Positions 14,290 through 60,817 of a stretch of DNA of 64,000 nucleotides are shown here, one piece after another. The position numbers and the translations under genes were made by a program. The first letter of the stretch is position 1, and every line of letters begins with the position of its first letter. Below the pieces are notes generated by a model. The model searched no databases and was not told where the DNA came from. It worked only from the letters and a program-made list of their open reading frames with translations. This DNA comes from Oryzias latipes (taxonomy: Eukaryota > Chordata > Actinopteri > Beloniformes > Adrianichthyidae), in assembly GCF_002234675.1 (NCBI RefSeq), contig NC_019867.2:18756184-18820183 (forward strand), given 5' to 3'.

Positions 14290-17200
14290 TCACACATCAG
14301 TCATTTCTCCTTGGATTGATCCCTTGTATGTCCGTGTTGTAGCAGACATAAGAGCATCGATGTCTCGAATGGCTTTAGAGGTATTTTCAAGAGCTTCAGC
14401 AATGCAGTCGTCATTCACAGGCTCACAGGTGACCTCAGCAAAAGCGTCTTTGAACACTGCACACTCGTCCTCCCTTTTTGGCACACGGCTGTTTTCCAGC
14501 AGGACTGGATGCAATATGTTAAAGAGTTATCATCTGTTTATGTATATACACACACAATACTGAGTTGGAACATTTTGGAACTCATTTTAAAAGAACACGC
14601 TGAAAGATACAATTGAATCGCGTTATCTTCTCCAGTTCTGCAGCAACAATACATGACCTGAAAGAGAACAGAAAAGTAAGATACCCATATAAAGTAAGAT
14701 GATGAGGAAATACTTCCCTTACCGATTATCTGCTCCATGTGTCACATTCATCTGTTGCTCAACAGTCACAGAGCTGCATGGATTTTTTTCTAATGTTCCA
14801 GATTCATAACTTTTTTTGCTCTGCAAATAAAAGCATGCATCACACTGTTACCCAAATAGAAGTTTACTTTATGGGTAAACACTGGACCAGTTGAGGTACC
14901 AGTACCTCTTGAAGGCAGCTGGGAGAGGCAGGGAATTTCAGTAACTGCTTGGCCTGGTTATAAATAGCAAGGATCCTGTAAAGAAGCAAAAAAAAAGTTG
15001 GGAGTGTGTTAAAGATCTGAAAAATGTTGAAGACTTTAAACGTGTTGAACGTCTGCTAGAGATCTCACCTATTTGCACGATTCACAACAGAGCACACGGA
15101 GTACATCTGTCCGTGTACATCAGGTGGAAGACTGTTTAAGTGGTAAGTGAGCTTTTTTGCCTGCAGGAAATCAAACGATTGAATGAAAATTGAACAAGCT
15201 GGTAAAAAAAAAAAACAGCCTTTAAAATATGTTGTATAAAATATGTTTATGATGCAAGCTGACCTGCTTCGACTGAAGATCAAATTTGTGATGGGTAAAA
15301 TAAGAATTGCTGATGCCAGTAGAACGAATGACTGATCCATCTCCAGGGCAAATCTCAATGCCTGTTCCACTCAGTATCCTAATAACAAGCAACATTTATT
15401 GCAGAACTGGACATGTCATGTCAGTGCAGCACTAAATAAAAGTTTATTTTTCTCACCTCATGCACTCAGCATCAAATTCTACCAAAAAAAACAAGATATA
15501 TGTGCAACTGATGACCTGCTGAAATGCTTCAAAACCCACTCCGATCATCTTTTGTTTTATTGTAAAAGCATTCCCAGTGGTCTTTTAATTATGATTATGC
15601 CCTTTTTAGACCATTTTTTTTTCAATTTGTCATTTTCTAGGATTTAGTTTCTGCAGAACGGCAGTAGTTCATTAAAATGTTTTTACCGCTGAGTTGTAGG
15701 CAGGACCCCTGGCACAGAGTATGGTAAGCCTTCTCCCATTTCCCATCATCTCTCTATTTACACTCTCTCCAACTGGCTTACAGCCTCTCACAACCCTAAC
15801 CTGATCTTAGTGCTATAACAAAAAGGCTGCGCAATATTGGAGCTATCCAGCCGTACAGTTTTGAGCCACATGCCAGCTCAGACGAGGAAAATGAAGACGC
15901 ACATGGATCTAGTTGTCTTAAAGTGGATGCATCAGAATGGAGTTTGTGGCCTTTGCAGGTTCTACGTTACATGTCCAAGCTTTTCCAGTGCATTTTTTCA
16001 TCTGTTCCTGATTCACAATGATTTGTACAAAGAAATACTCAGATTTGCAATTTTAAACTCAAATGCTCTTTTTTTATATGTCCTTCATCATGAGGAAAAT
16101 GCTGCAAAAAATGGGATTTTCATCAGAGTGAGTCCTTAAAACAAACCCTGAAAAGAAGCATAACTACCTGTAAATAATTCCTTGACACCACACTATTTTC
16201 ACAAGGTCTGTTGGAATGTCTGATACCTTTCCTCTGACCAATGGATCCTTCACCTTCCACCTAAAACATGGACATAAGAGCTGAGACATGAACCATTACT
16301 ATGAGGGAATTGAGCCAATTTATCAACCAAACCTGTGCCAATGAGGCAGTGGACATGTGAGAGACAGTGCCTGAGGGAGTTGGGAAATTCTTTCCTCACA
16401 AGGCATATCGGATGTTTCCCTGTTGGTCCCTGTAGAAATGCTCGAGTCTGACGCCTCTACGTCTTCAGAAAAATGAGACATCCAGTGATGGCGGACCAAA
16501 GACAAAGGGTAGGCCCATGTGGGAGAGAAAGCACTGCAAGAGTGATGCTGGACAACTGTGGCGGATTGAAACATCTGTATCGGTTTGGAGGAGAGAACAC
16601 AGTAATCACACTTTACAGCCTGAGATAGATAAAAGCAAATGTTTAAGAAAAAGCATTACCTTCTCTGGAGCAGGAGTGACTTTTCCAGTCTTATCCGACT
16701 TTGCGCTCACTCTACTCTGACTCAGCATTTTAGTGCAATCCTCTACACTGTTAAAGATCAGACTGCAGGCTTGTGTCTGACTGTCTGTGCCGTCCAAACA
16801 CTGCAAACCGGGACGCTGACTTTCATCCCGACTCAAGCTGCATGTGAACTCCACCGAGAACGTTTCACCTGAGGGTGACAATATCAACGCGGCTCGGTCC
16901 TCCTCCGACTTAATCCCAATCTCACCCCCAGGTCTGTCCTCAGCCTGAAAGGATGACCTCTCAGGCCACTGAACACACTGTTCCACAAAGAAAAACCCCT
17001 ACAAAGGATATGTAAAAGGGTTAGATATACACTAACATAAAAGGAGATAATAGTAGGAGGACATATAGCAATGATAACCTTCTTTTTGTCAGCAGAGATG
17101 AGTTCTTCTGGCAGATACGGTCGACTTGCATAGTTATTTCTAAATTCTAAGGCAGCAACAACCAGCTCCTGTGTAAACAAACGACAAACGTTAAGTAGTC

Positions 17201-40865: not shown

Positions 40866-43413
40866 ATGAGTAGCGAGCACTCTCTCCAGGCTCTGTCGTG
40901 GAGAAAGTTGTATCTGAGTCGAGCTAAATTAAAAGCCACCAGTCGAACCTCAGCACTCCTGTCGGGTTTCGCAATGGTAAGTTTGTTTGTCTTCGAGATG
41001 CGCGCAGTTGGTTTACGGGTTTCTCAAGAGTGGCGGCGTTCACGCCTTTATTTAGGCCCCGTTACTGCTCAGTCAGTGAGCGGCAGTCGCAGCATCCGTT
41101 CATTCAGGGTCAAAACAATGCTGCAGTTTGAATGACGCAATGAGAAACGCACATGAAAAAGCACACAGCAGCAACTAATTTAAAACAATTTTTTAGTCAG
41201 CAGCAACTAATTTAAAACATTTTTTTAGTTTAACTGTAAAAAAAAAAGCGTTATGATCTAAATTGATGAACATACTGTTGGAAAATTAGCCTTAAAATGA
41301 CAGCTTACAATTTACAAAGCAACATTAAATCAATTGGCAACAAAAAATAGTACACTCAAAGTTTAATTTATTGAGTATGCTTGAGTTTAGGCATAAGTAT
41401 GGCAAGTATGCTATAAACCATGTTTTGGGTAGTCTGTGTATGTGAAGTACTAACTAAATACTTTTTCAATACTAAATTTACTAATACTAAATGGGAAGAA
41501 TTTAAGTTTACATTTTAGAGATAGTATGTAAAAAGGAAAGTTAAAGTGTACTGCCTCACTTTAACTGCTCTTTATTTATTGTATTATTAATAATAATCCC
41601 ATCGTTTATTTTTATGCTTGGACACTAAAAATTATTATTAATAAAGTCGGTCTAGTATTAATAGTATGACTATTTTCAAGTAGTCATAGCATTAATATGA
41701 CTATTTATTATAAAACCTTAAGAGGTGGATCAAAAATATCTACAAACCTCCACACCTTGCATTTAGGCTGGGGGTCTGCAACATTTTATGCTAAAATAGC
41801 CCTTTTTTCTAGTTGCTTACTTTCAAAAACCCAGCCTGAGCTGCAAAGTCTCACTTCACGGTTTGGAAAAAATACACTTTTTTTTTGTGGCCATGAAGCC
41901 TTTCAATTGTCAAATTTTTAATTATTTCATCATTTAAATATTTAAAATAATTGAAATATAACAATGTTATTTTTTCTGTTTGTATAACAATTTATTTATT
42001 GGTTTTGTTTAGGCAGCAGCACATACTAGTTCCTATACTAGTTCCTTTCAAAATAAAATACATCCTGTGTCAATAACTACCGTAACTTATTTTTTCCTAA
42101 GCATCTCCATTTTTCTTTAAAGCCAAAGAGTCACAATTGAGTAATAAAAGAGGCTTTGGAGCCTAAGGTTGCAGATTCCTGATTAAAGACAAAAATAGTT
42201 TAGATGAGAATTTGATTAACTCATTTTGTGTTTTATTTTTGTATTTTAATTACAGATCTTTAGGAGAAGCACATTTTTTGTTTTTATTGATGCAGAGCTT
42301 TTCTCCCTTAAACTATACATAATCTGCATCTTTAACCCCAACAATTTAACATTTTTCCCCTTGCATTGCCCAAACAGCTACTTTTCATCTTGAAATATGT
42401 GAGATTTGTGATTATTTCAGCAACAGACAACATTTTATGATTTTTTTTTTTTTTGCCATCTGCCATGTTATTTTTTACATTACTGAAAGAGTCCATGTCA
42501 GCGCTTTGACTTGGTGTCACACACAGATAAGATCCATGAGTGACCGCAAAAGCAAGGAAACTCCTTTTAAATCCTCTTCTAGTCTTGAGGGGGGTTAAAA
42601 TCTAGATTTTTCAGTATCAACGGGTTAATCAAGATTGTCTAATGAACACAGGAGGCCAACTCCACTGGGGAATAAGACAAAAGAAAACGTATTTGCATAA
42701 TTCTTGAGATGGCAGCCTTAAAAGCAGGACATCTGTGTAAGCATTTCTATTAAAATAGCTTTTCCTGACTTCAAACATCAGTTTGGTAAAACAAAAAAAA
42801 ATTATTATGTATTTGTAGAAAAAAAATTGCAACTACAGCAAATATTCTGTGTGTTATTGTTTCCCAGGTTGCCATGGTGGAAGTACAGCTTGAGGCGGAC
42901 CACGTGTACCCACCGGGGCTTCTGATAGCCTTCAGTGCGTGCACCACAGTGTTGGTTGCAGTGCATCTCTTTGCCCTCATGATCAGCACCTGCATCCTCC
43001 CGAATCTGGAGGCGGTCAGTAACGTGCACAACCTCAACTCTGTCAATGAGTCTCCACATGAGCGTATGCACCATCACATTGAACTAGCCTGGGCTTTTTC
43101 CACTGTGATCGGCACATTCCTGTTCCTGACAGAGGTGACGCTCTTGTGCTGGGTGAAGTTTTTGCCACTCAAGAACAACAAGGAGGTAAATAATGGCACC
43201 ATCACTTCCGGCGAAGCGGCGGCCATCGCTTCCACCTGTATCATGGTGCCATTTGGCTTGGTCTTCATTGTCTTTGCTGTCCACTTCTACCGTACGCTGG
43301 TTAGCCATAAAACGGACAGGCAGATCCGAGAGTTGGAGCAGGTCATCAACCTGCACAACCAATTGGACCACACGGCTGAGAACGAGGAGCTAAAGCCCGT
43401 CCATTTCCCCTGA
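40866..43413 (+). CDS. orai1: orai1, store-operated calcium channel pore subunit, short N-terminus
   Basis: Two exons, 40866-40976 and 42868-43413, give 218 aa. The product starts [20 protein letters not shown], the ETON/TM1 helix of Orai channels, and carries the pore glutamate in AMVEVQLE (human E106). Then come TM2 ([18 protein letters not shown]), TM3 with [10 protein letters not shown] (human E190), an NNGT glycosylation site in the second outer loop, TM4 ([20 protein letters not shown]), and a C-terminal helix that binds STIM1. Loop residues and the second glycosylation site favour Orai1 over Orai2/3. The start aligns with human M64, the start of ORAI1-beta. An in-frame TAG at 40830-40832 with no other ATG between shows this exon cannot supply a longer N-terminus. 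The proline/arginine-rich 63 residues of mammalian ORAI1-alpha are absent. The single intron is 1.9 kb. Confidence 0.95.
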
Positions 43414-47712: not shown

Positions 47713-47718
47713 ATGTAA
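47713..47718 (+). promoter_or_regulatory. Start-stop uORF overlapping the setd1b start codon
   Basis: The sequence AAATGTAATGG contains ATG-TAA (47713-47718), whose last base is the first base of the main ATG (47718-47720). A scanning ribosome meets a start codon followed at once by a stop before the real start. Such elements can lower or tune initiation. Confidence 0.6.
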
Positions 47719-50700
47719 TGGAAAGCAGTAAACAGAATGCAGAGAAAGACAGGCCTCCGCAGCACTGGAAAAGTTGCAAGCTGATGATTGATCCCGCACT
47801 TACTAAAGGATTATACAAGGTGTACCGCTTTGACGGACAGTTTTTCAACATTCCCGTGAGTATTTCATTATTTTTCTGTCTTTTTTCCTTTTCTTATAGT
47901 TTATGTACTTCCCGAAATGTGATAATAACTTAATTAAAAATAACTTTTATTATAACATTGCTGTAACTTCTTCCCAGGTGGAGGATATAGGATTATTTCC
48001 CATCAGCACCGTCAAAGATCCCCGCGTGTGCCGCTTGTGGAGCAAAAACATTAAGCCTGACCTTTCGGTTGCGAAGTTTAAGGTAATATATATTGGGATT
48101 TTAACTGTTTTTAGAATTTAATTACAAATAACAACAGTATATACCATTGTTTCCCCCCAGATTGATGAATGGTACGTTGGAGCAGTTCCTCCCAGGGAAG
48201 TAACTCTTTCCAGACTTAATGACAACGTGAATGCGACGTTTTTGCGTCATATTTGCGAGAAATATGGGAATGTGGAAGACGTGGAAATATTTTACCATCC
48301 AAATACCAAGAAACATTTAGGGGTTGCAAGAGTGGAGTTTGACACAGTGAAGGCAGCAAAAGAGGCCGTGAAGCACCTTCATCAAACGTCTGTGATGGGA
48401 AATATTATTCATGTGGAGATTGATCCTAAAGGTACAAAAGGTTGGGTTTTAACTGAAGAAATATGTGTATTATCAAAACGCTTGATTCATATTAATGTGG
48501 AATTTGCCAGGTGAAAATAGATCAGGATATCTTCAGCTTCTTCTTAGCGGCTTGTACGCTCCCAGGACATTACCGGTGAATAGCAGTGAACAGGCTCTGC
48601 AAAGCTTAGTCAAACGCTTGTTGGTAAGCATTTAAAGCCAATTATGATGTCTTTGAACTTGTATTTTCTCATTTGAACAAAAAAAAGATGTTTTGATTAT
48701 ACTTGGTTTCTTCTTCTTTTTTTCCAGGACAGCACATCTGCTCAGCAACAGGGGGCGTTCTCCAGTCCAGCCAGCATCGCAACACCCCTCTCTCTGGATA
48801 CAGCATACTTCAGTATTTGTCAGGACACACCTTGTAGCTTTGGGTACACACCACAATCTCAGGGAACCCCTCGCACTCCCTGCTTGACAGCGACTCCTTT
48901 ATCCCAGGATTCCTGCTACTCTAGTCTTCAAGCGACTCCGGTCCTCCAGGGGGAGCCTTCCACTTACAGTGTTCACAAAGTTTTGAGACATGAGCTTTCC
49001 CTTCGTAAACCTGTGAGGAACCACAAAAGGTCCAGACAGGGTTTACATTTTACCTCGAAACTTTGGCAGCCACATCCTCCAGACTCACTGTTGACAGAAA
49101 AACAAAGAAACGTCCACCAGCCTGGACCCTGGAGTAGGACTACACAATTGTCCACCCATGAAGAGTCTTCCTATACTGTTGCTTCCCCATTACAGGGGTC
49201 TGGAGGCACGCCTGACTCTTTCAGCATCCTAACCATTAATGTGTCAGCTGAGCAGCAAAATCTCCAACCACAAGCAGAGAGTTTGGACTCTCGTATTGAA
49301 AGTTTGTTGACTAATAGTGAGATCCCATCTGGCTTTCATATAAAGACTTTAGAACCCTCTGAAAATTCCCGGGACAGCCCAGCTTCATCTTGTTCCGCTC
49401 CTACAGAGGCTTTTTCAGCCTATGAACTTTTTGCCCTTTCCCCCCATGGACCTTTCAGAAGCAGCCCACAGCATTCCTGCAAGGATTTGGTGGATGTCAG
49501 TCCAACATCACTTAGTGAAAGTGATAATGAGCAGTTTTTACTTGAAGAAACCTCCCAACGTCCATCTGAAATGACTCCTTGTCAGAGAAGTGCTTACAGA
49601 GATGGTGACAAAGCTGTAGAAACATCTCACTTGTTATGCTCAAAGGTAATTTCACTAGATTAAATTTCACTTCCAACTTCCAGAAAACAATGTGTTGTTT
49701 CCTTTGTCAAATTAGTAACAGATTATATTAATATTTTTCTTTCTCAGAAGCATCTTACTGCAAACCAGGATAGGAGGCATCCAAATAAAGAACAGCCTGA
49801 AGCTGCAGCAGAGACCTCCAGTTCTTCCTTAAGTGGCTCGACTCCCAACATCATCCCTGAAGGTCCTTCTCTGGTCAGATCTTCAGGTCCTCCCCAAACT
49901 CCTTTCTTTAATCCCCTGCTTCCACCTCCATCTTCTCTTCCACCAATTCCACCTCGCCTTCCAGACGGCACAATTCCCATCCCACCACCAAACTGGATTC
50001 CTTTTCAGGGTGTCTCAATTCCACCACCTCCCTCTATCCCTCCCCCACCAGCTTTTCTTCTGCCTCCTCCACCTGTAATGCTGCCACCTCCCATACCGCC
50101 CCCTGTACACATGGGCCATTTACCCACACAACCTGCAGCCTCGTCAGATCAGGGGAGTCTTAAAACCCTCAGGAGTGCGCCTTTCTCGCTCATTCGCCCA
50201 CCGTGGCCCGCTCCACCCTTTCCCAGGATGAATCCTTTTGTGCCACCACCCAGTTATCTTCCTGCTCATGAAAATCCTCATAAAGTCATAGTTGAAAAAG
50301 TTTTGGACGCCCTCATGGATGAGCTGAGATCGATCATTAGGAAGGACATTGCACGTAGAATGATTGAAGGAGTTGCTTTCAAGGCTTTTGAGGACTGGTG
50401 GAAAAGTCAGGAGGAGAAATTAAAGGTTAGTGTATCTCCTCTCAAGATGTGCTCAACTGAAACACTTTTTTCTTTCTTTCTTTGTTGAAAATACCCTTTT
50501 AAAGCTTGTCAAATCACTCTATTACTCAGATTCAAGTTCATCCTATTCAAAAGGGAACATGCTTGAAAAACAGAAACAATCCTCTGAATCGCATTACCGA
50601 TCGGGGCAAAAAAACACCACTACCATCCTTTAAGGTACAGTGATTCGCTCAGTGTCTGTTAAATATACACATTTTAAACTGCTGATTGCATTGTTATGAA

Positions 50701-53700
50701 CACAACTTTACCTTTGTGCAGGTAAAAAGGAAACGATCAGAGGAGAGACAACATTTTTCTGAAACTTCGAGTGAGATTTTTTTGTTTTTATACTTATTAA
50801 AAAAAGTAATTTTCCTGTTTTTGTAAGTTTTGCAACCTTGTTATTGTTTGTAATAGATTCCAATGTGGAACCGAATGATCAAGTAGGATCAGCATCTCCG
50901 AAAGCCAAGCGCAGACACGCAAGACCTCTGGACCTTGATAGCAGTGATGGGGATACTGATGGTGATGACGACAAAAAAGAAGAAAGAGTTGAAGATGACA
51001 CTCCAGTTTTGAACCCAGTTGAGGCTGTTGTTCCACTTTCTGATGAGCCTCAGAATTTGGGAAACACCTCAAAGGTAAATTAAAAAGAACCTGTTTTATA
51101 AACAGTAATGTTGTATTTTGTATGATTTTGTCTTGTGCTATCATGCAATTAATTATTGTGTGCGATTAATTAATCATATCACATAATCACCTGTAAATAA
51201 TTAATCAAAATAATCTATTTTTAATCAAACATAAAAAATGCTGTGAAAAGACTCATTTTGAGGTATTTTCATTTAAATCCGTAACATTGTGGGACAGTAA
51301 AAGATCAAAGCATAACTAAAACATTGACTTTATGAAGTTTTTTCATAAAGTCAACCTTTACTTTTACACTACCAAGGAGGATTTTTTTAAGGCAATCCAA
51401 ATATCGACAATAAACTTCTTATTAATACCATATCCCATAAAACATTTGTGGACATACCTTATGTCACAGTTAAACACAACTACAAGAAAAGACATGAGTG
51501 ATTTTATAGTTTCCTTTAACCTGTTTGGTGAATTTGATAATTTTGAAGAGTCTGATGCAGCAGAAGATAAAAGAGAGGAGAGAAAATAAGATGGAGGTGA
51601 TGAAACACAGGAGGGAACACTGGAGGAATTGAACTACTTTGATTTTGGACTTTGTTTCTTTGAAACAAACTTTTGCTTCATCATCTGGACAAAAACAAGC
51701 GAAAAATTATCCATTGTTTAACTTGTTATAACGTTCAGCATAAATACCACTTTCCACAGAGTTTTTGTTTAAGTTTAGTTTAGTTTAGTTTAGTTTATTT
51801 TTCCACAATGTGTCAAAAGCAACAAATCCCCTCACAGTACAGAATGTGGTAAAAAGGGACATCCCCTCTCTTAAGAGAGGTAAGAGTGAGAGTAGAGCGA
51901 GTTAAGTGTGGACGCTGTTACCATGACAACGCTTCGCACTGCGTATCAAATAGTCTGCTTTTGTGAAAAAAGGATTTAAACTCAAAAATGTAACAAGATT
52001 AAAGTATTAATAATTGATTTAACATTTATTTGTTCGTAAGTGACCATGGTAATAATAATAATAGATTTTATTTAGAATGCGCTTTACATTTTAGATAAAA
52101 TCTCAAAGCGCTAGAGATTATAAACACGTGTCGATTTTCAGAAATCAATAGACTTCATGGTAGATGAAATCAGGCCTCTGTGTTGTAATTTACCGGGAAT
52201 TATCCCTTACACAATAGATAATAATTACAGATAGAAAATTTGATTTATGTGTTAAAAAAATTGCTAATTTGTCTGCTATTAATTAACGCGACAATTTGAC
52301 ACCCTTCATTTTGTCAATGCTTTGATTAGAAGGACAGTCATGCAGATGGGGATTCTGATAGTTATCAACACCATGAAGAAACCGCCGCAGAAGAACGGAG
52401 AAACCTCACTGATGTTACGTTTCAAACAGCTGACAAAGAACATCACTTATACAAAGGTTTGTTTAAAGGTCACTCTGTTTCTATACCAAACACCACTGAT
52501 TATTGATTTATTCAATTTAAATTTTTAAAATGTGTTCTTTAATCAGTTACAGAAACAGAAACTGTCTCAGAGAGCAGCTCTTCAGAGGAGAGTGAGTATT
52601 GCTCTGACTCCAGATTGTTCTCATCTCAAAGCACTGAGGATTCCCCCTCTGACCGGAGCACCACAAGTGGAAGAATCAAGGAGGATGAGAGTGAAGAGTG
52701 CATTGTGATATCATCAGACGAAGACTCAGATGAGACCGAGCCTCCAGTGACCCCTTCAAACCCTTTAACTCCAGGCTCTCAGATGGATCTTGACCTGCAG
52801 AACTGGTTAGATATGTGCGAGCAAACCGACGAGAACCATGCATCCTGTCAGCAAGACTTCTACTCTTTGGATCCTGTGATGGTGCTTCAATCCAATGAAA
52901 CACAGAGCTTGTGCCACATGTCGCCCATGGGACTTGCAGGTAAATTTCCAGGATGTTATTTTTCACTAGATCAGGTTAGTTTGAGCCATGAGGAAAATAC
53001 ATTCTATGAAGACTTCCTGGTAATTCCTTAAATTTAGATTTACAAATTGTTCAAAATTGCACAAAACATGAAATAATATTTTTCACTTGTTGTGATTTCA
53101 AATTACTTTGTAAATAAATGAATGGTATTCCTTAGCATTCATTTATATTTAATAATGATATCTTTGTAGAAGAAGAGCCTGGACCTGATGTGGACATGAG
53201 GAGTCCTGACTGGACAGACGAGTTTGAACCAAGGATAGACCAACTGAGGCCTCCAACTCCCACTGGCTGCTTAGTAGACGGTGACATTCTGATCAAAAAC
53301 AAAACAACTCCGATTGTGGAAGAAGCTGAGCTGCCTCCAACACCAGGCAGGGGGGTCCTGGCTGAGCTGGAAATAGCAGAATCAGATGAAATCAATGAAG
53401 TCCTCTTTTTGTCCTCAGCAAACTGCGAGCTTGCAGCAGCGCAGGTTGATTCCCCGTTGGCTTCATGCGATGCGTATGAAGAAATGCCTGAAACTCCTGG
53501 GGAGGAAGAGGACAGTGAAAGGATAGCTTACAACTCAGAGAGAGCGCCAGCAACACCTGGCAGAGGAGTGGCAGAAGACACAACTATGGAGACATCAGAT
53601 GTCCTACCACTCTCATGTAACCCTTACATAACACCTCCCAAAACACCTGGAAGAGACATTGTTTTACCCCTAAGAGCCCATGAGAGGCAAACACAAGCCA

Positions 53701-55419
53701 AGGTTGCCTCGTCACCCTCACCGCATCCTAACCTTTTAAGAATATCTCCCACTGCAATGTCATCTCCATGCAGCCTCGCAGAAGCTTCGTCTGACACCGA
53801 TGACTGGACTAGAGCCAAACCCCTGCAGGGACTTGAAAACATGCCCGGTGTTCAGAATGAGGAGCCATCTTCAGGAAAACACAAACAGTGGAAGAAGCTG
53901 AAAAGGAAAAAGCGGAACCAGCAAAAACAGCTCGGGCGAAGCTTCTTCTCAAACGCTGGGCTTCAACGGTGGCGTTCGCTTTATGAAGAATGGAAAATTT
54001 TTCACAGCTTTTGGAAGCACGGTTTGGATGAAGAAGATGCAAGGTATCTCAAGGTTTCTTATGAAAAGTTGTGGGAGGAAGGGAAATGTGCAGAGTGGCT
54101 CAGGAACACCACGTGGATTTCTCATCCTCATATCCTTTTCTACTAAAGTTTACAGCAAGTTAAAACTAACTATTTTTGTAATCATCAAATCATAAGCATT
54201 TGCAAGTTTAAAAAAAAAAGATTTCTTTAATGTGTACATTTTAGGTTTTGACAAAGATTTTATTTAACTGTTCATTTTAATTGAAGTCCTACGGTTAAAA
54301 GTCAAGTCTTTATGTTAAGAGCAACTCTGTGTGTTGGTCCTGTGCTTATCTTTCTTAACCGCTGTTCACTGACTAAGGTCCATTTAGAGAGGAGCAAAGA
54401 GCATCAGTGTTCGTTCCACAGAACCGGTTCTGCTCGCAGTGAAGGGTTCTACAAAATCAGCAGGAAGGAGAAGATGAAGAACCTGTCCAACTCCAGGCTG
54501 AGCACAAACCCTCCCTTTACAGACGCTCAGGTATTCAGGAGGAAAGGGGAAAATGTGCTGATAGGATTGAGTTGGTTTTGTTCACTCACAACCTCTTCAG
54601 CAGGGAGCGCGTGTTCCAGCCCAGCTTCCCTCCTCACTGAGATCTGGCTCAGACTTTAGGTCTGAACAGCGCCGCCTGCTGTCCTCCTTCAGCTGCGATA
54701 GTGACCTGGTCCGGTTCAACCAGCTAAAAGTGAGCAAAGCGTTTCTGAAGATATTTGCACTCCACTGTTTAAAGACCTAAAATCTGATTTTTTGTAGCTT
54801 TAAGCCTGAAATGTATTATTTCTGATAAAACGAAAGATCTGGTAAATGTTTAAATGGTAAAATCCTCTATTTATTTTTAAATGTTACTTGGTATTTCAAA
54901 AAAGATACAGATTTTAATGAAGATCCCGGTACATAATTTCAAAATGGTTTATTAATTGGAAAATGGTTTATTAACATTTTTTGTCTTAAACTGGCTGTTG
55001 TTTCTGTGAACTATGTATCACTGTGACTTAAATCTCCTCAGTACCGAAAAAAGAGAATTCGGTTTAGCAGGAGCCACATCCACGAGTGGGGCCTGTTTGC
55101 TATGGAGCCCATAGCAGCCGACGAAATGGTGATCGAGTATGTAGGGGAAACCATCCGACAGGTAAAAAGCTGATGTGAAGCCGTCCAAAGAGATAAATAT
55201 ATTTAATGTCATCCCTAAGACCTTTTCTTTTTAGCCTTATATTTTATTTGGTTCGGGTCTCACCAGGTCATCGCTGACAGGAGGGAGCAGAGATATGAGG
55301 AGGAGGGCATCGGAGGCAGCTATTTGTTTCGGATTGACCAGGATACCATTATAGATGCCACTAAATGTGGGAACTTAGCGAGGTTTATCAACCACAGCTG
55401 TAATGTGAGTATACAGTGT

Positions 55420-55450
<31 letters not shown>

Positions 55451-56668
55451 CAGCTTTTGTAAGAAACTACTTCAAATCTTTATACAGTAATTTATTGATA
55501 TGCATTATATTGCAATAATAAAAATGATAAAGTATCTGAAAGCTGTTAGTTATACTTGTGCACTTGTTGCTTTGGTAAAACCATGATGGAAGGCAACTTG
55601 TCATCTGGCTATTTGTCAAATTTACTCGCTGCAGTTGTGTGTTTATTACTATGGAATATAAGGCCCACCATCAAAATAAAAAAAGAGAATAAAATAAAAT
55701 AAAAAAAAGACCAGGATAAAGTAGTTAAATTATGAGAGAAAAAAATCAACATTTTATGTGAATAAAATCTTAGAATTATTTGTAAAAAAGTCAATATTTT
55801 ACAACAATTAAGTTATAATTTCATAATTTATAAATTGAGAATTTACAAGATTAAACTCATAAATTAAAAATGGCAAAAGGCTGTTGACTAAAAAATATAA
55901 ACAACAAAATAAGAACCAATATTGTGTTTAGAATAAAAAACATAGAACAAATTGTGAGCAGTTACTTCATCATTGGCTTCACAAATAAGGAAATGCTTTT
56001 TACCTACACTTTGTAAGCATAAGGACATTGAAAAGTATTTGCAGGAAACTGGGCCTCTTCAGATGAAGATTCTTGACCCACAATGGGCGCACCGTTTACA
56101 TTTCCAACAGTACAGTTGCAGAGGTTCAAATGCATTATAGCATATGGATTTCTATGATAATTAAAGCCATAAATGGCTGCATTGATAGATTAAGTCGGAA
56201 CGTAATGTGGATGGAGGCTCACACAAGCAACATTATTTTCGAAAGACCATGGCCTTTTCCTAATAGAATGAGGACTTTTTCTCATAATAAGTTTATTCTT
56301 GTAAATTTTTTACTTTTTTCTCATATTTTATAACTTAATTTTCATATATATCTTTCATTGTGGTTCTAATACTCTGTTGTATTTTATTCATCTGACTCAA
56401 GCAACTTCTGACTCATTTAAAGTTGCTAATGCAAACCAGTGCATGTCTGGACATAACATTTGTGGATCTTCCTGGATGTGTTTTTGTCTTACAGCCTAAC
56501 TGCTACGCAAAGGTCATATCTGTGGAATCTCAGAAGAAGATTGTGATTTACTCCCGTCAGCCAATAAGCATCAATGAGGAGATTACGTACAACTACAAGT
56601 TCCCCATTGAGGACACAAAAATACCATGTTTGTGTGGAGCAGAAAACTGCAGAGGATCTTTGAACTAA
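47718..56668 (+). CDS. setd1b: setd1b, SET1-type histone H3 lysine 4 methyltransferase
   Basis: Seventeen exons: 47718-47855, 47978-48082, 48161-48431, 48511-48623, 48728-49645, 49748-50425, 50530-50634, 50722-50770, 50857-51074, 52330-52456, 52547-52939, 53170-54129, 54370-54530, 54604-54729, 55042-55161, 55267-55404, 56495-56668, giving 1,597 aa (human about 1,966). Order: conserved start ([20 protein letters not shown]); RRM about 98-168; LDSRIESLL motif; a proline-rich stretch in exon 6; acidic and serine-rich middle; N-SET with WDR5-binding WIN motif GSARSEGFY (R1381) and [14 protein letters not shown] ([22 protein letters not shown]); post-SET C1585, C1587, C1592, ending RGSLN. It methylates H3K4 in a COMPASS complex with CFP1, WDR5, ASH2L and RBBP5. 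All introns are GT-AG except 54130-54369, which reads as AT-AC. The exon 7 acceptor was chosen by frame. SETD1B rather than SETD1A follows from the exon 13-14 sequence and the genomic context. Confidence 0.93.
51075..52329. other. setd1b intron 9
   Basis: AT-rich, with a TTTAG run (51,770-51,800) and a short AGCGC-type dispersed repeat (52,045-52,120). No coding sequence fits SET1 in this stretch. Confidence 0.6.
54130..54369 (+). other. Probable U12-type AT-AC intron in setd1b
   Basis: The 5' end is ATATCCTTTT, a full match to the minor-spliceosome donor consensus. Near the 3' end TTTCTTAAC (54351-54359) matches the U12 branch-point consensus TTCCTTAAC at 8 of 9 positions. The branch A lies 12 bases before exon position 54370, and the intron ends in AC. 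Joining 54129 to 54370 keeps the frame and gives [16 protein letters not shown], in register with human SETD1B. No GT donor exists before the in-frame stop that follows exon 12. Confidence 0.85.
55405..56494. other. setd1b intron 16 with simple repeats
   Basis: Begins with a GT run passing into a G run (55,421-55,450). Then A-rich AAAATAAAAT sequence (55,675-55,710) and AT-rich filler. I see no transposon I can name and no exon. Confidence 0.6.

Positions 56669-57604: not shown

Positions 57605-60817
<3,213 letters not shown>

Follow-up and report, generated by a model that had tools for sequence, protein, structure and literature searches.

The window, that is, the whole 64,000-nt stretch of Oryzias latipes DNA that was analysed, carries on its forward strand a gene of the SETD1 type for which an exon model was made by hand, splice by splice. 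The model has 17 exons and 16 introns and encodes 1598 codons followed by a single terminal stop, the reading frame after splicing running to ..CRGSLN with the stop at 56666-56668. Fifteen of the 16 introns have GT-AG ends and the remaining one, intron 12, has AT-AC ends. The gene and the exons that matter most for this intron are the following.

47718..56668, + strand: setd1b gene (coding sequence, stop included), hand-built exon model with RRM, N-SET and SET domains
53170..54129, + strand: exon 12, with the first part of N-SET at its end (..TTWISHP plus base 1 of the following codon)
54370..54530, + strand: exon 13, further N-SET, with the GSARSEGFY stretch
55042..56668, + strand: exons 15-17, catalytic SET domain and C terminus

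When pieces of the protein were scored separately against Pfam, RRM_1 was matched with 44.8 bits, N-SET with 50.9 bits and SET with 96.1 bits, so that an N-terminal RRM, an N-SET and a C-terminal SET domain are all present, as in the SETD1 (Set1/COMPASS) methyltransferases. Comparison of the C terminus with solved structures gave as the four best matches chains of H3 lysine-4 specific methyltransferases, which we take to be those of yeast Set1, and the GSARSEGFY stretch of exon 13 is presumably the Win motif. An ORAI gene (174.6 bits) is found upstream at 42790-43413, and ORAI1 likewise adjoins human SETD1B. The three domains together with the neighbouring ORAI gene fit an identification of the window gene as setd1b.

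The features of intron 12 are listed below, including the stop codon that would be met if the intron were retained.

54130..54369, + strand: intron 12, AT-AC, U12-type, 240 nt, phase 1; same codon and phase in the C12 (L009) and C8 (L012) genes described below
54130..54137, + strand: U12-type 5' splice site ATATCCTT, 8 of 8 positions
54144..54146, + strand: in-frame TAA met on retention, 15 bases into the intron
54351..54359, + strand: branch site TTTCTTAAC, branch A taken as 54358; 8 of 9 positions to TTCCTTRAY
54368..54369, + strand: AC 3' splice site, 11 nt past the branch A

The intron begins ATATCCTTTTCT and finishes TTTCTTAACCGCTGTTCAC, and the exon resumes at 54370. All eight positions of the U12 donor are matched at its 5' end, as against 3-5 of 8 in the other 15 introns, and from 47718 to 56666 the gene strand holds no other [AG]TATCCTT. 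A branch-site match does not by itself identify a U12-type intron, because an 8/9 match also occurs in two of the 15 GT-AG introns of setd1b, 4 and 18 nt from the intron end. U12-type AT-AC introns are defined, in the available text of PMC2831892, by ATATCCTT at +1 to +8, a TCCTTAAC branch site and an AC end; intron 12 shows the donor, the branch site, a short distance from branch to acceptor and the AC end, and its removal keeps the frame and the protein. The AT-AC share of minor introns is 22% for zebrafish and 12% for both pufferfish examined, against 0-0.03% of the major introns in these three fish, according to the available part of PMC7367187 (Table 2). Phase 1 of intron 12 also agrees with the tendency of minor introns to avoid phase 0 that is described in the accessible portions of PMC7367187 and PMC10639083.

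Joining base 54129 to base 54370 divides a codon between its first and second bases (C/TG) and leaves the frame intact. The N-SET profile then forms one continuous match from position 9 to position 172, scoring 50.9 bits when spliced compared with 15.0 bits when the intron is retained and 20.3 bits when exon 13 is skipped; the retained-intron product has HILFY as its C-terminal residues. Four AC ends pair with the donor and an 8/9 branch site under loose spacing, defined as 1-16 nt from branch A to intron end, and these lie at 54237, 54359, 54369 and 54373. Only the one at 54369 leads into an open frame, the other three being rejected because they break it. The original prediction of an AT-AC intron with full U12 signals at 54130-54369 is thus borne out by the donor (8/8), the branch site (8/9) and the AC end; the predicted length of 240 is exact, and the frame, as predicted, is kept through the C/TG codon and stays open to the terminal stop. 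The branch site had been placed 12 bases before the AC, which is close, the distance from the branch A to the last intron base being 11 nt. The further claim that the catalytic part lies beyond this intron also stands, since translation gets as far as Win stretch and SET domain only when the intron is removed, and retention leads to the TAA listed above.

When the genome to which the window belongs (734 Mb, 25 contigs) was searched with the SET domain, 31 matches came back, and the count of three full-length SETD1 genes used here is based on that search. The SETD1-type genes are the window gene on C9, one gene on C12 and one on C8, the remainder being more distant SET genes. The C12 gene is matched at its N terminus and RRM, in a middle part (window residues 690-743), in N-SET and in SET, all within about 11 kb, and the same four parts are matched in the C8 gene, which by resemblance is presumably SETD1A-like. 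The C12 gene, too, has an ORAI gene (L018), at a distance of about 19 kb, so that ORAI is upstream of SETD1 in both the window and C12; it was the sole match near the C12 gene among the neighbours tried. No ORAI gene was found in the fetched C8 stretches, and the gene that follows window setd1b, presumably HPD, was sought with two pieces, neither of which matched the fetched stretches. Because ORAI is next to both, the C9 and C12 genes look like two setd1b copies derived from the teleost genome duplication. The SETD1 genes of zebrafish are given as setd1a, setd1ba and setd1bb in the available text of PMC2200798. By N-SET similarity the window copy is not paired with C12, the identities being 73/148 for window and C12, 60/136 for window and C8, and 83/138 for C12 and C8, a pattern that we read as the window copy evolving fast in N-SET. 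Relatives were also sought in viral contigs and in bacterial and archaeal genomes with six peptide patterns, and none were found there.

Some further observations concern the copies themselves. The region 53170-54729 of the window belongs to a divergent copy, with an N-SET Pfam score about half of those of the C12 and C8 genes. In the last SET exon (56495-56668) the window copy reads EEITYNYKF, whereas the C12 and C8 SETD1 genes read TYDYKF, as do L010, a copy on C8, and three SET genes of the genome that are more distant (L002, L004 and L005); the activity of the window copy might be lowered by this substitution of N for D. Two additional loci on C8, L010 and L011 (at 4.00 and 4.02 Mb), are 99.94% identical over 7.1 kb and carry the SET-exon end of the C8 gene, with about 98% identity to L012 over 1.4 kb. 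Neither an N-SET match nor a gene-strand [AG]TATCCTT was found in L010 and L011, which appear to be either partial copies that arose recently in tandem or a duplication made by the assembly.

An AT-AC intron occupies the same codon and phase in all three full-length SETD1 genes found in the genome, with the same ATATCCTTT donor in each. The C12 intron is 128 nt long, with donor ATATCCTTTCTG, branch site ATCTTTGAC (7/9), the AC 11 nt on and the end ATCTTTGACTTCTCTGCAC; its exon finishes ..DTLWVNHP-C and the frame goes on P-TNIPVVKKKRR. The C8 intron is 116 nt long, with donor ATATCCTTTCAG, branch site GACCTTGAC (7/9, with other 7/9 branch-like sites nearby), the AC 15 nt on and the end GACCTTGACTTTTTGAGCTTCAC; there the exon finishes ..DTHWVHHT-G and the frame goes on V-TNLPNPRRKKK. 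The intron thus falls after base 1 of the codon following HP in the window and C12 proteins and HT in the C8 protein, and this codon is aligned across the three. N-SET scores for the spliced and retained forms are 94.3 and 34.4 bits for C12 and 101.2 and 37.8 bits for C8. Each gene has one [AG]TATCCTT on its strand, in every case at the shared junction, over 8.9 kb in the window, 17.0 kb in C12 and 27.5 kb in C8. The stop met on retention lies 15 nt into the intron in the window gene, 36 nt into it in the C8 gene and 16 nt beyond it in the C12 gene, and in all three it comes ahead of both Win stretch and SET domain. Local alignments of the intron interiors, when compared with shuffles, are within one standard deviation for two of the three pairs and about 2.6 above for window and C8, an excess that we read as shared AT-richness. 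Since the interiors show little similarity, the splice signals have been kept while most of the intron turned over.

Simulation gives a measure of how often such motifs would arise by chance. Motif pairs of like quality with loose spacing are expected 0.55 times per 64-kb strand (60 simulations), and for this reason the motif pair alone was dropped as proof. Restricted to the required exon end, simulation gives the donor low odds of 6e-4 and the branch site plus AC odds of 1e-2, ahead of the frame requirement, and a chance origin of the signals is untenable because two paralogs have this donor at the identical codon. The + strand of the window also holds a second ATATCCTT at 59606 and a perfect TTCCTTGAC at 16178; these other U12-motif matches (16078/16178 and 59606) lie without coding context among ORFs of at least 125 codons and were set aside.

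Taken together, it is nearly certain in our judgement that 54130-54369 is an old AT-AC minor (U12) intron of setd1b, one that most likely predates the separation of SETD1A and SETD1B and that the minor spliceosome would remove. The minor spliceosome acts through U11/U12 and then U4atac/U6atac/U5. At this locus U11/U12 would recognise ATATCCTT and TTTCTTAAC, after which base 54129 would be joined to base 54370. That intron 12 is in fact spliced in this way we infer from its sequence, and on the same footing the SETD1 enzyme, and with it H3K4 methylation, would depend on minor splicing. Retention would give a protein with neither Win stretch nor SET domain, or the mRNA may be lost through nonsense-mediated decay. 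Because codon, phase and donor are the same in all three full-length SETD1 genes, the intron most likely predates the SETD1A/SETD1B duplication. The split between SETD1A and SETD1B dates to the early vertebrate duplications, and the simplest history would be a single intron in the common ancestor of the two before those duplications, a history that hinges on the C8 gene being setd1a. The same AT-AC intron is predicted in the SETD1 genes of human and other vertebrates, and U12 catalogues may list the human ones.

A gene finder restricted to GT-AG introns would misread the SETD1 proteins or cut them ahead of the catalytic domain, here in three genes. If the dependence on minor splicing holds in RNA, a loss of minor splicing would hit three SETD1 paralogs at once, so that no copy would cover for another, and it would become easy to test for a contribution of chromatin changes to minor-spliceosome disease. 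It could further be supposed that the intron is a regulated switch, through which low activity of the minor spliceosome would lower SETD1 protein and H3K4 methylation alongside the other minor-intron genes. With the intron retained, each of the three SETD1 products would end ahead of the catalytic domain, and minor introns have been proposed as switches governed by unstable U6atac (available text of PMC3728624). On the other hand, for much of the evolution of minor introns neutral processes are the account favoured by a large survey (PMC10639083, in its available part), two zebrafish minor-spliceosome papers (rnpc3, zrsr2) carry no 'setd' in their main text, and 'setd1' has 0 occurrences in the 11 papers of one literature listing. 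A switch of this kind appears unlikely to us, and a regulatory role for intron 12 is speculation. The wider proposal, that every vertebrate SETD1 (SETD1A and both fish SETD1B) has kept an AT-AC intron in N-SET since before the duplication and that this intron gates bulk H3K4 trimethylation, which would fall with minor-spliceosome failure, is a tentative one and somewhat improbable. No paper tying SETD1A or SETD1B to minor introns was found among the matches listed, a scope outside which fall database gene lists and most subscription papers; in the accessible text of papers that have SETD1A or SETD1B beside minor-intron terms the co-occurrence is incidental, and the available portions of PMC6865273 and PMC6717393 hold nothing on SETD1.

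The minor intron has also to be weighed against ordinary splicing of the same exon, by a GT-AG pair such as donor 54071 or 54113 with acceptor 54287 or 54320, with the AT-AC signals being there by chance. From 53900 to 54530 the frame would be kept by 221 GT/GC-AG pairs. Seven of these 221 were scored on Pfam N-SET beside the AT-AC join and gave 36.8-49.8 bits versus 52.4 bits for the latter. The closest, 54071 to 54287 (49.8 bits) and 54113 to 54320 (49.2 bits), trail the AT-AC join by 2.6 and 3.2 bits, so that two of the seven come within 4 bits of it; the N-SET score alone would not settle these two joins, and it is the paralogs that do so. Both joins add intron-derived residues and lose exon residues, their donors are weak (2.67 for 54071 and 2.23 for 54113, on a simple matrix), and both paralogs have the AT-AC donor at this very codon. 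We therefore consider a GT-AG join very improbable. The original prediction went slightly too far in stating that the exon has no usable GT donor, since the GT at 54044 (AAG/GTATCT) scores 4.94 on the same simple matrix compared with 4.51 for the gene's own donor at 54531; its use does remove N-SET residues, and the three joins scored from it reach 36.8-37.5 bits versus the same 52.4. Removal of an AT-AC intron by the major spliceosome, which does occur in some sodium-channel introns with AT and AC ends, is more improbable still, because those known cases have G at +5 (PMC2831892, in its available text) whereas +5 is C here and in both paralogs, and because the whole ATATCCTT is retained along with a U12-like branch site in the window and the paralogs.

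The reading of intron 12 as a minor intron places it among the U12-type AT-AC introns, which it resembles in its ATATCCTT donor, in a TTCCTTRAY-like branch site near the AC, in being single among many GT-AG introns and in its phase 1. We see no difference in anatomy, and it is the host gene family that is the point. It shares the AT and AC ends of the sodium-channel introns, and differs from them in its complete U12 donor. Deeply conserved AT-AC minor introns, among them those of PHB2, STX6 and KCMF1, found in both fly and human, have likewise kept position and subtype across old divergences according to the available text of PMC2831892; the 19 fly U12 introns tabulated in that text include none of SETD1 or Set1, and the age of the SETD1 intron is traced only to the SETD1A/SETD1B duplication. 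Intron 12 of setd1b is thus an ordinary member of the known U12-type AT-AC class, and what is worth keeping is its presence in all three SETD1 paralogs.
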